Source of the DNA: Candidatus Methanoperedens sp.
GTDB taxonomy: Archaea > Halobacteriota > Methanosarcinia > Methanosarcinales > Methanoperedenaceae
Assembly (NCBI GenBank): GCA_026552955.1
Contig: JAPMTS010000010.1
Coordinates: 1 to 64,000 of the forward strand
Reading direction: 5' to 3'
DNA: 64,000 bases
Shown: positions 25,423-30,774 of the stretch, piece after piece
Position numbering within the stretch: the first letter of the stretch is position 1
How the letters are laid out: each line of letters begins with the position of its first letter
Notes under the pieces: generated by a model
Told to the model about the DNA's origin: nothing
What the model saw: the letters and a program-made list of their open reading frames with translations, nothing else
The model's database searches: none
Position numbers and translations under genes: made by a program

Positions 25423-26616
25423 TCACTTTTCTTTAGGTTTCTTGATGTATTTGGAGATTTTTCCTCGCTGGAAATATAATATTAGTATGATCACAGCAGC
25501 CAGCAGCCAGGTCGAATAATTTGTGCCTGAAGATCTTGTTTGTGATCCTGTTGCGGATAATGTCACATGGAGAGACTTCTTTAAAGTATGTCTTTGTCCG
25601 CTGGTGTCGGTATATTGTATCTCCAGTTCAAGATTATTTCCGGCCCCGGGCGTTTTCGTTAGCTGAAATGGCGCTGATGTGTAATCCCCCGGATTCAGAT
25701 TTCCAAGCACAGACGTACTGCTCCCTGTAACTGAGTAGTTTTTCTGGGGGGGAAGGGTGACAGCTACTGCACTTGCAGTGCTTATCCCTACATTGGCGAC
25801 ATTAAGAGAAAAAGATCCCATGGTCTCCACATAGCTTATATCAAAATCCGTAATTCCTGCGACTACCAATCCAATGACATTATCTGTCGAATAATTGTTC
25901 TGTCCGGTAATCTTTACCGGAATATTATAAACACCGGGGCGTGCAGCTATATCTACTGCAAGATCGAAAGTTATCGATGCTTCATCACCTGCTTTCAAAT
26001 TTCCCAGGAAGAATTGTTTTCCTCCTCCAATTATGGAAAATGCCGAATTTGCACTGGCAATGTTTATTTCAGCCACAGCATTCTGTACCGTGCCTGTGCC
26101 TGCATTTCTAAATTGCAATGTTTCCCGCGTTATACTCATGGGCGCTACAATGGCCATCGTTGAATTAACCAGCATTATAATAGGCTTTCCCCTGATAGTC
26201 AATATCTGGTCATCCAGCTTGGTCGTTGCTGACATTGCCGGAGCCCCGCTGCTTGTTTTCTGTCCCTTATAGGTGACATAAACATTGAAAAAATAATCTC
26301 CTTCTACTGTATCAGGATTTACATATATCCTGAATTTTGCCGTTCTCTGGTCTCCCCAATTTGTTATAGTTCCCAGTGAATCTACATTATTCAGGATTGT
26401 TACGGCATTAGCCGAAGCAGTTTCTTTTGGCTCGAGTTTTACCGTAACATCCTCCATGAAGTTCCCAAATCCCATGTTCTTTATCGGCACATAGACATAT
26501 GTCGTATCCCCGGGATATACCGGTGCGCTCTCAGTCACAAGATAATTAGCAGCCGATGCGACCTGTGCAATCATTAATGTCGATACTATAATCAAAACCA
26601 AATTATACTTATTCAT
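25423..26616 (-). CDS. COG1361-like exported adaptor protein
   Basis: 397 residues: signal peptide (about 1-22), three to four Ig/CARDB-like beta domains with NEW3-like spacing, a C-terminal helix (about 367-385) and a basic cytoplasmic KKPKEK end. Proteins of this S-layer-related COG1361 type are often encoded beside MacB/LolD transporters in archaea, where they may act as the extracellular partner in place of a periplasmic adaptor such as MacA. Overlaps the ATPase gene by four bases (ATGA). Confidence 0.8.
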
Positions 26617-27290
26617 GTTTCACCAACTATTTTTCCATCCAGCATTTTCACAACTCTTCCTGCATATCCTGCAATTTTTTGGTCATGTGTTATCATCACA
26701 ATAGTCAAGCCCTCACTATTCAATTGTTTAAAAACATCCATTACTTCACCTCCTGATTTAGTGTCCAGGTTCCCTGTGGGTTCATCCGCCAGGAGAATCG
26801 CAGGGGATGTGGAAAGAGCCCTTGCCACGGCAACTCTTTGCTGCTGTCCGCCTGACAGCTGGGCAGGGAAATGACTCCCTCGTTCTGACAGGCCAACCAT
26901 TTCAAGCAGTTTTTTTGATGTATCTTCTACATCTTCTTCAGAAAATTCATGAATCCTCATTGGCAGTCGGATATTCTCAAGAGCTGTAAGTGTAGGATAC
27001 AGGTTGAATGTCTGGAATATGAAGCCGATCTTTTTACCCCTTACACGCGCCAATTCATTACTGTAAAATTCCGATATGTCCCTGCCTTCGAGTAAAACCT
27101 TTCCGCGCGTTGGCATGTCAAGACAACCTATCATATTTAACATAGTTGATTTGCCGCAGCCACTTGGTCCTGTAATGGCAACGAACTCCCCCGGTTTGAC
27201 CGCAAAATCTATTCCCGCAAGCGCCGGTACATCAAATTCACCCATGCGATATATTTTCCATACACCCTGCAATTCCATTATAATTTCCAT
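26613..27290 (-). CDS. LolD/MacB-type ABC ATPase
   Basis: 225 residues with Walker [10 protein letters not shown] (about 39-47), Q-loop, signature [15 protein letters not shown], Walker [13 protein letters not shown] and switch His in MITHD. Matches the MacB/LolD/FtsE family that pairs with FtsX-domain permeases. It lies four bases after the 135-aa gene and overlaps the COG1361-like gene. Confidence 0.95.
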
Positions 27291-27294
27291 GAAA

Positions 27295-27702
27295 TCACCG
27301 GTTAAAAAAGCGTTGATGACCCCAGCCCTTTGAATTATTCGTTTTATTCATAATATATTCTGCCATCCATCCGCTGGATTCTATCCTGCTTTTTTCCACG
27401 AGATTTCCTGTTTCCATATCAACAAGGGCTGTCAGGGTGATATTTTCCCGGGTAAGGACAACATGGAGGACTTTTTTATCCCCGTTCACTGTTGAAATGA
27501 TCCGTCCACGTTCCTGTACAGTAATATTATAATTATTGATCCCATTTTCATCTCCCAGTCCATTCTGGATAGCATTTATCGCAAATAGCTTCTCTTCCTC
27601 GTTTACAGGAAATGAATGACTTTCAAAATATGTAACCCTGAACCCAACAGCTACTGCCAGCAGGCCTATCATGATCAATGCAAATATTTTCCATCGGTTC
27701 AT
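27295..27702 (-). CDS. Membrane-anchored small protein of ABC operon
   Basis: 135 residues, first gene of the ABC operon. An N-terminal hydrophobic helix (about 6-22) is followed by a PepSY-like compact domain (about 35-115: alternating strands with VLTRENITLTALVDMETGNLVEK). I do not recognise a named family. Predicted to face outside. It may regulate or assist the exporter because it is separated by only four bases from the ATPase gene. Confidence 0.65.
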   Translation of the reverse strand: MNRWKIFALIMIGLLAVAVGFRVTYFESHSFPVNEEEKLFAINAIQNGLGDENGINNYNITVQERGRIISTVNGDKKVLHVVLTRENITLTALVDMETGNLVEKSRIESSGWMAEYIMNKTNNSKGWGHQRFFNR

Positions 27703-27899
27703 AGAACCAACCTGGATGAAAGACCATATAAGAATTTGCTGAAATTATCCTGAAAGTAGTATCAAAAATATGAAAATAAGCCTTAGCTATCTTTTTCTGG
27801 AATTTTTGTCACTAAGACACTTTCATATATTATATTTATCACAATCAATCATTTCATTCGTATGTGTACGAACCATAATCTTTATTAAGCTGCATATCG

Positions 27900-27916
27900 T
27901 TTACATTAATTGTAAA
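27900..27916. promoter_or_regulatory. TTTACA-N5-TGTAAA palindrome
   Basis: A perfect 6+6 inverted repeat with a 5-base spacer directly before the ATG (27918) of a 52-aa reading frame. Typical operator geometry for a dimeric winged-helix or ribbon-helix-helix regulator. It lies in the divergent gap between the ABC operon and the Hdr cluster. Confidence 0.5.
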
Positions 27917-27917
27917 T

Positions 27918-28076
27918 ATGACACGACATAGCAAAAGAAATACAACTGACAGGCTGCATTGCACATACAGCGCCATCATAGACATATTTGAGATGGAAAA
28001 CAACCGGGAACCAACCAGTCATGAAGTTAATAATATTATATTCCTTTATGGCGACAGGGGGTCGATGGTCAAGTAG
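27918..28076 (+). CDS. Possible small regulator, 52 aa
   Basis: An ATG-started frame of 52 codons encodes a basic N-terminus (MTRHSKRNTTDR) and a segment FEMENNREPTSHEV that resembles the entry to a helix-turn-helix. I cannot assign a family. The start immediately follows a palindrome, and the stop immediately precedes three 20-bp direct repeats, so autoregulation and control of the downstream Hdr operon are conceivable. It could also be the remnant of a larger regulator gene. Confidence 0.4.
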   Translation: MTRHSKRNTTDRLHCTYSAIIDIFEMENNREPTSHEVNNIIFLYGDRGSMVK

Positions 28077-28134
28077 CATTATTAATACTGATGTTCCATT
28101 ATTAATAATGATGTAATGTTATTAATAATGATGC
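28077..28134. repeat. Three 20-bp iterons before the Hdr operon
   Basis: The unit CATTATTAATAATGATG occurs at 28077, 28097 and 28117 with exactly 20-bp spacing and one to three mismatches. It ends about 90 bases before the first ATG of the Hdr cluster. TATA-like stretches follow at about 28143-28150 and 28175-28190. The two-helical-turn period suggests cooperative protein binding on one DNA face. Confidence 0.65.
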
Positions 28135-28226
28135 TCTGCATCGTTATAAATCGAAAGATTTAAAACCAATCAATCCTTTTAAATCTAAAAAAACGTTACA
28201 AACTAATTAAATCTGATGGGTACAAA

Positions 28227-29288
28227 ATGAGTAACGTACAATCATGTTATCAGTGCGGCAAATGCACATCCATATGCCCTATGCGCCGAGTATCGAAAAC
28301 TTCTCCTCGCAGTTCTATTTACAATGCGAATGTCTACGGGCTTGAAACGAAAGATATCTGGACATGCCTGACATGCGGGTTATGTCCCCAGGAATGCCCG
28401 CAACAGGTGGATTTCCTGAGCTTTATCAGGGAAGAACGGCAGGGAAAACAGCCCCTGGATATAGCACACCTTGGTGTTTTCACAGAACTTGCCGATCTGA
28501 GTTCAAAGCTCAATGGGAACATTGCGGACAAAACAACTGATTCAAAGATCGGTTTCTTTCCGGGATGCGTGGATTCCCTGGACTTGTTCCTGCACGATGT
28601 GAAAACAAATTTTGGAGAAATAACAACTTCATCTGTCAAGCTTCTTGATACATTAGGAATGAAACCGCAGGTATTAACTATGAAATGCTGCGGCCATGAT
28701 GTGCTCTGGCAGGGAAAAAAGGATATTTTTGATGATCTCAAGGCCCACAATAAAAAATACATCCAGGAAAGTGGAATAGATACTCTTGTTACAAGCTGTG
28801 CAGAATGTTATCGTACTTTTTCAAAGGATTATGACCTGGGTATAAAGGTTGTTCATATCTCGGAGTTACTTGATAAACTGGGATTGAAAATAAATGCTGA
28901 TGTGACTTTCCACGACCCATGCAGGCTTGGCAGGCATATGGGAATGTATGATGCGCCGCGAAAAGCGCTCACTGCAAACGGCGTTACAATAAGAGAGATG
29001 GAGCATTCAAAAGAAAACGCCCTGTGCTGCGGAGTCAGTAATTTCATGAACTGCAATGAGCAGACAAAAGCGCTTCGTATAGCCCGGATGGATGAAGCCC
29101 GGGCCACAGGCGCAAAGACCCTTATCACAACATGTTCAAAATGCCTGGCTCATTTCAATTGCCTTAAGACCGAAAAAGATGCCGTGAAGAGTTATGATTT
29201 TGATGTTGTTGACCTTAGCGTATTCCTTGCAAGGCAATTGGGTGAACCTGGCAAAAAAGAACAGGGATCTGCAAAACCGGAGGTGTGA
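28227..29288 (+). CDS. HdrD-like heterodisulfide reductase subunit
   Basis: 353 residues combining HdrC and HdrB functions. Two [4Fe-4S] motifs (CYQCGKCTSICPM and CLTCGLCPQECPQ) lie in the first 60 residues, followed by two CCG domains: PGCVDS/KCCGHD/CAECY and DPCRLGRH/LCCGVSNF/CSKCL. The CCG motifs bind the non-cubane clusters that reduce CoM-S-S-CoB or a related disulfide in Hdr enzymes. It lacks the extra N-terminal region of membrane-linked HdrD (about 410 aa), and no HdrE cytochrome is adjacent, so a soluble complex is inferred. First gene of the 12-kb Hdr cluster. Confidence 0.88.
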   Translation: MSNVQSCYQCGKCTSICPMRRVSKTSPRSSIYNANVYGLETKDIWTCLTCGLCPQECPQQVDFLSFIREERQGKQPLDIAHLGVFTELADLSSKLNGNIADKTTDSKIGFFPGCVDSLDLFLHDVKTNFGEITTSSVKLLDTLGMKPQVLTMKCCGHDVLWQGKKDIFDDLKAHNKKYIQESGIDTLVTSCAECYRTFSKDYDLGIKVVHISELLDKLGLKINADVTFHDPCRLGRHMGMYDAPRKALTANGVTIREMEHSKENALCCGVSNFMNCNEQTKALRIARMDEARATGAKTLITTCSKCLAHFNCLKTEKDAVKSYDFDVVDLSVFLARQLGEPGKKEQGSAKPEV

Positions 29289-29290
29289 AA

Positions 29291-29860
29291 ATGATAAAAT
29301 CAAGCGAGCTTGATCCGAATTTCAAATATGAGATAGCTAAAGAACCCGGCGGGGAAAATATAATGAAATGCTTTAACTGCACGGGTTGTACTGTCGGCTG
29401 TCCGGTCACGGAAATCGATAAATCATATAATCCCAGGAAGATACTTCGAAAAGCCCTCCTTGGAATGCGAAAAGAAGTTCTCAGCGATGATTCCATGTGG
29501 TATTGCGCATCATGTTATATCTGCTTTGAACGCTGCCCGCAGGATGTCAAAATAACTGAAGTGATCGGAGCAATACGAGCTATCGCCCAGCGCGAGGCAA
29601 AAGCAGGAAAGATCAAGATAGGGAATAATAAACCATTATTTGATAATCTTTTCATCGATTCGGTAAAAAGTAACGGCAAATGGTATGAAGCAGGGGTCAG
29701 CGGTACATTCATGCTCAAGACAAAAGGGATCGGGGGGGCTATCGGCTATGCTCCCATGGGACTTGAATTATTCAAGAAGGGAAAATTAAGCATCCTGCCG
29801 CATAAGATCAAAGGTACGAACGAGATAAAGCGTATTTTTGAGGAAGTGGAGAAAAAATGA
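29291..29860 (+). CDS. hdrC: Heterodisulfide reductase subunit C
   Basis: 189 residues from ATG 29291 (GGAGG seven bases upstream; an in-frame GTG at 29285 is less likely). Two cluster motifs: CFNCTGCTVGCPV and CASCYICFERCPQ. HdrC links the flavin-containing HdrA with the catalytic HdrB. Ends with a four-base overlap into hdrB. Confidence 0.9.
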   Translation: MIKSSELDPNFKYEIAKEPGGENIMKCFNCTGCTVGCPVTEIDKSYNPRKILRKALLGMRKEVLSDDSMWYCASCYICFERCPQDVKITEVIGAIRAIAQREAKAGKIKIGNNKPLFDNLFIDSVKSNGKWYEAGVSGTFMLKTKGIGGAIGYAPMGLELFKKGKLSILPHKIKGTNEIKRIFEEVEKK

Positions 29861-30774
29861 AGCTTGCTTATTATCCCGGATGTACCCTTCACGGCACAGC
29901 GCGCGAATATGACGCATCCACAAAAGCAGTGTGTAAGGCCTCAGGCATAGACCTCGTTGAGATCGAGGATTGGAACTGCTGCGGCGCTCTTGAAGCAATA
30001 TTTGATAAGGAACTTTCAATGGGACTTTCCGCCAGGAATAACTTCAAAGCACAGAAAACAGGGCTTGACCTTGTTATCCCGTGCAGCATCTGCTCGCATA
30101 ATCTTTCAAGAGCAGATACGGCGATGAAAAAAGATGAAGCATTCAGAACAAAGATAGAAAGAGCCCTTGGCGAAAAATATAATGGCGTTAAGATAAAGCA
30201 TCTGCTGGATGTCATGGTAAATGATATCGGGACTGAGGCAATATCCGGGAAATTCACACGTTCGTTAAAAGGAATAAAAGCGGTCGCTTATTATGGCTGC
30301 CTGCTTGTGCGGCCTTCTGAGGTTTCAAAATTTGATAATCCTGAAAATCCCATGTCTCTTGATAACCTGATACGGTCAACAGGTGCCGATTGCCTTCCTT
30401 TCACACAGAAAACAAAATGCTGCGGAGGAAATCTTCTTATGAGCAAACAGGATTACGCATTTATTCTTACAAAGAAGTTGTTCGATGAAGCAAAAGCGAT
30501 TGGCGCAAATTGTATTGTCGTGGCCTGTCCTATGTGCCACATGCTGCTTGATGGCCAGCAGACAATGATTGAAAAGGCGCATAATACTGTTATCGATATG
30601 CCTGTCCTTTATTTTACACAACTAATCGGGCTTGCCATGGGTTTGGGTGAAAAAGAGCTTGAGCTTGATAAGAATATGGTTCCGGCCTCAAAGCTTATCG
30701 GATCTATCGGGAAAGAAGCAAAAGTGGAAGTAAAAGCCGCAGGTAAAGCGCAAGGAGCGGAGGCTGCAGAATGA
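29857..30774 (+). CDS. hdrB: Heterodisulfide reductase subunit B
   Basis: 305 residues with two CCG modules: YYPGCTLHG / NCCGALE / CSICSHN, and YYGCLLVRP / KCCGGNLL / CPMCHML. These hold two non-cubane [4Fe-4S] clusters at the disulfide-reducing site. The Ala/Lys-rich C-terminal tail (last 25 residues, KAAGKAQGAEAAE) is unusual and recalls the composition of the protein at the end of this cluster. Overlaps hdrC and hdrA by four bases each. Confidence 0.9.
   Translation: MKLAYYPGCTLHGTAREYDASTKAVCKASGIDLVEIEDWNCCGALEAIFDKELSMGLSARNNFKAQKTGLDLVIPCSICSHNLSRADTAMKKDEAFRTKIERALGEKYNGVKIKHLLDVMVNDIGTEAISGKFTRSLKGIKAVAYYGCLLVRPSEVSKFDNPENPMSLDNLIRSTGADCLPFTQKTKCCGGNLLMSKQDYAFILTKKLFDEAKAIGANCIVVACPMCHMLLDGQQTMIEKAHNTVIDMPVLYFTQLIGLAMGLGEKELELDKNMVPASKLIGSIGKEAKVEVKAAGKAQGAEAAE

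Follow-up and report, generated by a model that had tools for sequence, protein, structure and literature searches.

A conserved small-protein gene between two putative, separately regulated promoters ahead of the Hdr cluster of Candidatus Methanoperedens

We analyzed a 64-kb stretch of DNA from Candidatus Methanoperedens, referred to below as the window, in which a large Hdr cluster begins at position 28227. Two promoters were recognized upstream of this cluster (Table 1). P1, spanning about 27840-27916, drives a gene for a protein of 52 amino acids, and P2 (28077-28165) is the promoter of hdr itself. An initial annotation of the region had described a TTTACA-N5-TGTAAA palindrome directly before a 52-codon reading frame, followed by three repeats at exact 20-bp spacing about 90 bases before the first Hdr gene. 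All of these features were present, the last repeat ending 90 bases before the hdr ATG. A further palindrome, TTCGTATGTGTACGAA, which is stronger than the TTTACA one, had been missed. TATA spacing places the probable start site of P1 near 27908-27912, and transcription from P2 is predicted to start near 28187. An Rfam search of positions 26000-30000 matched no RNA element, and folding of the hdr leader was no better than that of shuffled sequences.

Table 1. Features of the region upstream of the Hdr cluster, in window coordinates
Feature	Position	Strand	Basis or remark
Degenerate ATTAAT-type box of P1 (CAATCAATCATTTC), upstream of the MsvR box	27842..27855	+	Weak in the window itself
MsvR-type operator TTCGTATGTGTACGAA (TTCGTAN4TACGAA)	27857..27872	.	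Exact match to published MsvR box
BRE/TATA of P1 (CCATAAT CTTTATTAA)	27873..27888	+	Sequence; conserved CCAaAAtcTTTAaTA in P1 alignment
TTTACA-N5-TGTAAA palindrome TTTACATTAATTGTAAA	27900..27916	.	Overlaps predicted P1 start site
Conserved 52-aa small protein gene	27918..28076	+	Homologue searches, dN/dS ~0.15, two predicted helices
Repeat copy 1 (CATTATTAATACTGATGTTC)	28077..28096	+	Diverged form present in close relatives of the window
Repeat copy 2 (CATTATTAATAATGATGTAA), holding perfect 14-bp palindrome CATTATTAATAATG	28097..28116	+	Best conserved copy among close relatives
Repeat copy 3 (TGTTATTAATAATGATGCTC)	28117..28136	+	Corresponds in position to the one site seen throughout the genus; degenerate in G019
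BRE/TATA of P2 (CGAAAG ATTTAAAA)	28152..28165	+	Sequence; conserved MGAAATSTTTAAA-like element
First Hdr-cluster gene (Fer4 + CCG domains)	28227..29288	+	Gene downstream of P2

Sequence conservation identifies the 52-codon frame as a real gene. Intact single copies were found in 23 of the 31 genomes of the genus, homologues occur in two further families of the order, and the median dN/dS was 0.15 over 34 non-saturated pairs, with less non-synonymous than synonymous change in 153 of 153 pairs. A protein search recovered the gene in most relatives. By profile search, 131 of 238 genomes in the class each had a single copy; within the genus this search found the gene in 25 of 31 genomes, in two of which (G012 and G021) it was truncated. 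Besides Methanoperedenaceae (f1), the families with homologues are f2 and f5, whose names we inferred, f5 being Methanosarcinaceae as judged from gene content. No match was found in the f3 and f4 genomes covered by the protein search, nor among the f4 genomes listed by the profile search.

Members of f5 are about 72-91 residues long and have the core D-I-F-x-M-x-x-x-R-E-P-x-x-x-E in common. One cysteine (C15) is conserved in Methanoperedens and none in the f5 members. The protein corresponds to no known family in Pfam, NCBIfam, PHROGs or PDB sequences and belongs to a Methanosarcinales family of small proteins that has not yet been named. Its AlphaFold model consists of two helices (pLDDT 74, moderate confidence) and had no PDB fold match with E < 0.001. 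A possible helix-turn-helix entry had been noted for the frame; family, PDB sequence and fold searches detected none. For none of 18 members did any HTH, RHH or other DNA-binding family reach a meaningful E-value, the best related match being Sigma70_r3 (E=0.11) in one member only. A ribbon-helix-helix reading, suggested by the helix pattern, was likewise dropped, as no test supported it.

The arrangement of the small gene and hdr differed among genomes of the genus. The observed orders were gene-repeats-hdr (the window and its relatives), mcrD-gene-hdr and gene-mcrD-hdr, and in other genomes the gene and mcrD were located on a contig other than that of hdr. mcrD separates the small gene from hdr in G001, G005, G015, G022 and G071, and the gene is on a different contig from hdr in G007 and G011. 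It is decayed by internal deletion in G012, G013, G014, G016 and G021 and lost in several relatives. In f5 genomes, the small gene lies away from hdr, often after dtxR-feoB, so that a tie to Hdr alone is not supported. Many genomes of the genus contain two mcrD copies, the second paralogue being located beside the small gene and hdr; the genome of the window has a single mcrD, inside the mcr operon. A second hdr copy with mcrD close by was observed in G003 and G017. In a tree of the first Hdr protein, six three-repeat loci and one three-repeat locus with a decayed gene formed one branch (support 94/91), and the position of G002 was not settled.

At P1, the palindrome that had been missed is an exact copy of the MsvR box, TTCGTAN4TACGAA (PMC3729527), and both the sequence and the P1 alignment set it against the BRE/TATA. 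All 30 Methanoperedenaceae loci compared had the pattern TTCGN8CGAA at P1, and no more than five further TTCGN7-9CGAA sites occurred in those sequences. Regardless of whether its first gene is mcrD or the small gene, every P1 carried the TTCG...CGAA palindrome against its BRE/TATA, and the box was retained where the frame is decayed (G012, G016, G021). A 248-aa protein encoded in the genome of the window combines ArsR-type HTH and V4R domains and is of MsvR type; its gene has the box 49 nt before the start. V4R proteins occurred in all 31 genomes of the genus, and the box was found about 49 nt before the start in 20 of 20 resolvable msvR genes. Small-protein homologues preceded by this kind of box were also found in the sister genus and in four genera of f5, where 9 of 56 sampled loci, which are related to one another, had it at about -54, against about 0.2 expected at the background rate. 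Most f5 genera lacked the box before their homologues (g26, 0/11; g13, 0/8; g8, 0/6); a box before all homologues was thus rejected, and MsvR would control only part of the family. The box in 30 of 30 loci, the presence of msvR with its own box, and the box before other homologues make the predicted action of MsvR at P1 well supported by sequence. With its recognition sequence present, MsvR appears to be a better candidate regulator than the 52-aa protein for the upstream half of the region.

Two other elements were found in P1. The ATTAAT-type box upstream of the MsvR box reads TcAtnATtAAtnATTT in the aligned P1 promoters of 23 Methanoperedenaceae loci, and its distance from the TATA in G007, G011 and G018 is 31 nt, the same as at many hdr P2 promoters. 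The TTTACA palindrome by itself is unremarkable for the window, since 31 of 100 shuffles gave at least one match with at most one mismatch. Loci whose transcript begins with the small gene have nevertheless conserved it; those in which mcrD leads, and those of the sister genus, lack it or show an altered form.

Other MsvR-type sites were observed outside this locus. A perfect one (L074, G000:C37:71910, outside the window) lies ahead of a NifB-like gene. Multicopy, partly tandem units at L071, L072, L076 and L077 (G000:C26, C28, C47 and C10) contained GTAAACTATANATACT, a TTCGTATATATACGAA palindrome and a GTGGGCAG/CTGCCCAC stem; they resemble a family of small-RNA genes whose starts carry an MsvR-type site, and an Rfam search of these units gave no match.

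The three repeats of P2, which were also found by TRF, are 80-85% identical to the first copy. Their 3x20 match score of 48/60 was reached by none of 2000 dinucleotide shuffles, the maximum of which was 38. Each repeat contains the dyad CATTATTAATAATG in perfect or near-perfect form; the repeats, described initially as direct, are thus palindromic sites in tandem at the stated 20-bp spacing and not simple direct repeats. The window and its relatives alone have three copies, and most Methanoperedens have a single copy. An ATTAAT-centred palindrome was located 29-35 nt before the hdr TATA in 24 of 26 genus loci. This site was kept where the small gene is decayed (G012, G013, G014, G016), separated by mcrD or located on another contig, and the 52-aa protein is therefore not required for it. 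P1 has a weaker form of the P2 box at a similar distance from its TATA. When the TATA-coupled pattern was searched for in the 31 genomes of the genus, the matches fell mainly at hdr P2, at P1 and at one CBS-domain gene, which suggests a small set of putative targets. The repeat had also been considered as the mark of a genome-wide regulon, with further copies before other Hdr or cytochrome operons; its own genome yielded only isolated other matches, with no such operon among those inspected, and this idea was abandoned. In several genomes, a CBS-domain gene (L147, L148, L159) carries the same ATTAAT box and TATA spacing.

Some observations concern the start of the first hdr gene. In the window, a four-codon frame (ATG GGT ACA AAA TGA, 28216-28230) overlaps the hdr ATG. 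In 10 of 29 loci there was no in-frame ATG, GTG or TTG before the first Fe-S cysteine, and in those 10 loci ACG occupies the position of the ATG at 28227 in the window, which suggests a non-standard start or a frame change.

The frame, the palindrome and one repeat copy are conserved, and the initial annotation thus withstands the refuting condition it had set, a lack of conservation of the repeats or the frame in close relatives. The region next to the Hdr cluster is a real, conserved regulatory site. On balance, we favor an arrangement in which two archaeal promoters, stacked and under separate regulation, enclose a small conserved gene ahead of the methane-oxidation energy cluster. As read from sequence, P1 most likely represents MsvR-type redox control and P2 the site of a second factor, with the 52-aa protein as a small effector. 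By analogy with the characterized MsvR, the reduced protein would bind the P1 box and block TBP/TFB, and the oxidized protein would release P1, so that the gene behind it would be switched on by a redox change. The product of P1 would be the 52-aa protein and, in many relatives, also the second McrD. At P2, the AT-rich palindrome that lies some 30 nt before the TATA may be bound by a putative factor, with three copies two helical turns apart in relatives of the window. The regulators of the region are thus probably MsvR plus this further, putative factor.

The initial annotation had read the same features differently, taking the 52-aa protein as a DNA-binding autoregulator of its own palindrome and the hdr repeats, that is, as a self-regulating switch. 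The gene and the palindrome at the start site are both conserved, palindromic sites adjoin the gene, and the N-terminus of the protein is basic in Methanoperedens; however, this N-terminus is not kept in f5 homologues, and the searches of 18 members and of PDB sequences and folds point away from DNA binding. In addition, the hdr site and the MsvR box persist where the gene is decayed or located elsewhere, so that the operators do not co-occur with the gene. We therefore consider an autoregulator quite improbable: a regulatory region beside the Hdr cluster and a real gene remain from that proposal, the supposed switch is probably a target of MsvR, and the small protein is more likely a product than a switch. 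It is also unlikely that the protein is a constitutive MCR/Hdr assembly factor inherited beside the second mcrD, with P1 an ordinary promoter conserved for strength and not for redox control. That the second mcrD copy and hdr are its neighbours in much of the genus, and that McrD has been given a part in MCR assembly or F430 loading (PMC12176620), would fit such a role, but promoter strength alone hardly explains an MsvR box in 30 of 30 loci together with msvR and its own box, and the family is located elsewhere in f5 genomes.

A different possibility concerns P2 only and is compatible with MsvR at P1. Instead of being a protein operator, the repeats could serve to bend DNA or exclude chromatin near the hdr promoter, consistent with their very AT-rich sequence and 20-bp phasing and with the fact that no factor is known. 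This appears doubtful to us, as dyad symmetry, sequence-specific conservation that includes the flanking GATGC, a near-fixed distance from the TATA, and recurrence at P1 and at the CBS-domain gene suggest a specific binder. For P2, we therefore retain a putative second factor as the preferred reading.

With regard to function, the 52-aa protein most likely acts on other proteins, as a redox or assembly effector of MCR/Hdr/Mtr-type enzymes, and not on DNA; this assignment is drawn from neighbouring genes only. More tentatively, and with less than even probability, the family could be a Methanosarcinales-wide effector under MsvR redox control in several lineages, which adjusts MCR, Hdr or Mtr upon exposure to oxidants. 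If so, redox sensing in Methanoperedens would be tied directly to the methane-oxidation cluster and the second McrD. In the papers searched, we found no literature on regulation of this locus and none joining Methanoperedens, promoters, transcription factors and Hdr. Redox sensing and the adjustment of core enzymes in anaerobic methanotrophs are largely uncharted, and the conserved MsvR box, placed before an unnamed but conserved small-protein gene and in many relatives also before the second mcrD, offers a concrete way to connect a known redox repressor with the machinery of methane oxidation.

Compared with the known MsvR promoters (M. thermautotrophicus msvR/fpaA and M. acetivorans msvR; PMC3729527), P1 has the exact TTCGTAN4TACGAA next to the BRE/TATA and a very short predicted leader, and msvR is present with its own box. 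M. acetivorans MsvR binds the box when reduced and has been proposed to repress by blocking the BRE (PMC3729527). The promoters differ in their targets, which here are a small-protein gene and, in relatives, the second mcrD of an anaerobic methanotroph, and there the fpaA oxidative-stress operon or msvR; P1 also has an additional palindrome at its predicted start site. The P2 repeats resemble plasmid-type replication iterons in being tandem at helical spacing, but they are located near the TATA ahead of hdr, occur as one copy in most relatives and are accompanied by no replication gene.

Small proteins provide a further comparison. MtrI, a 68-aa protein of M. mazei (MM_2401), carries a four-cysteine zinc ribbon at its N-terminus and binds cobalt through Cys40; it is reported to occur only in Methanocomedenaceae, Methanoperedenaceae and Methanosarcinaceae (PMC12774963). 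Like MtrI, the 52-aa protein is small, predicted to be helical, and variable in genome context. In the genomes searched, it was found in Methanosarcinales families that include Methanoperedenaceae, a distribution that even if shared would not make it an MtrI. Its sequence is different, with at most one conserved cysteine, and identity with MtrI was rejected because the four-cysteine zinc ribbon is missing. MtrR of M. mazei (49 aa), which acts on a central enzyme, is also a small protein of a methane-pathway archaeon; it is reported to be confined to Methanosarcina (PMC13370731), whereas the 52-aa family spans three families of the order. For both MtrI and MtrR, an action on the Mtr complex has recently been shown, and the present locus adds an uncharacterized family to the small proteins of this order.
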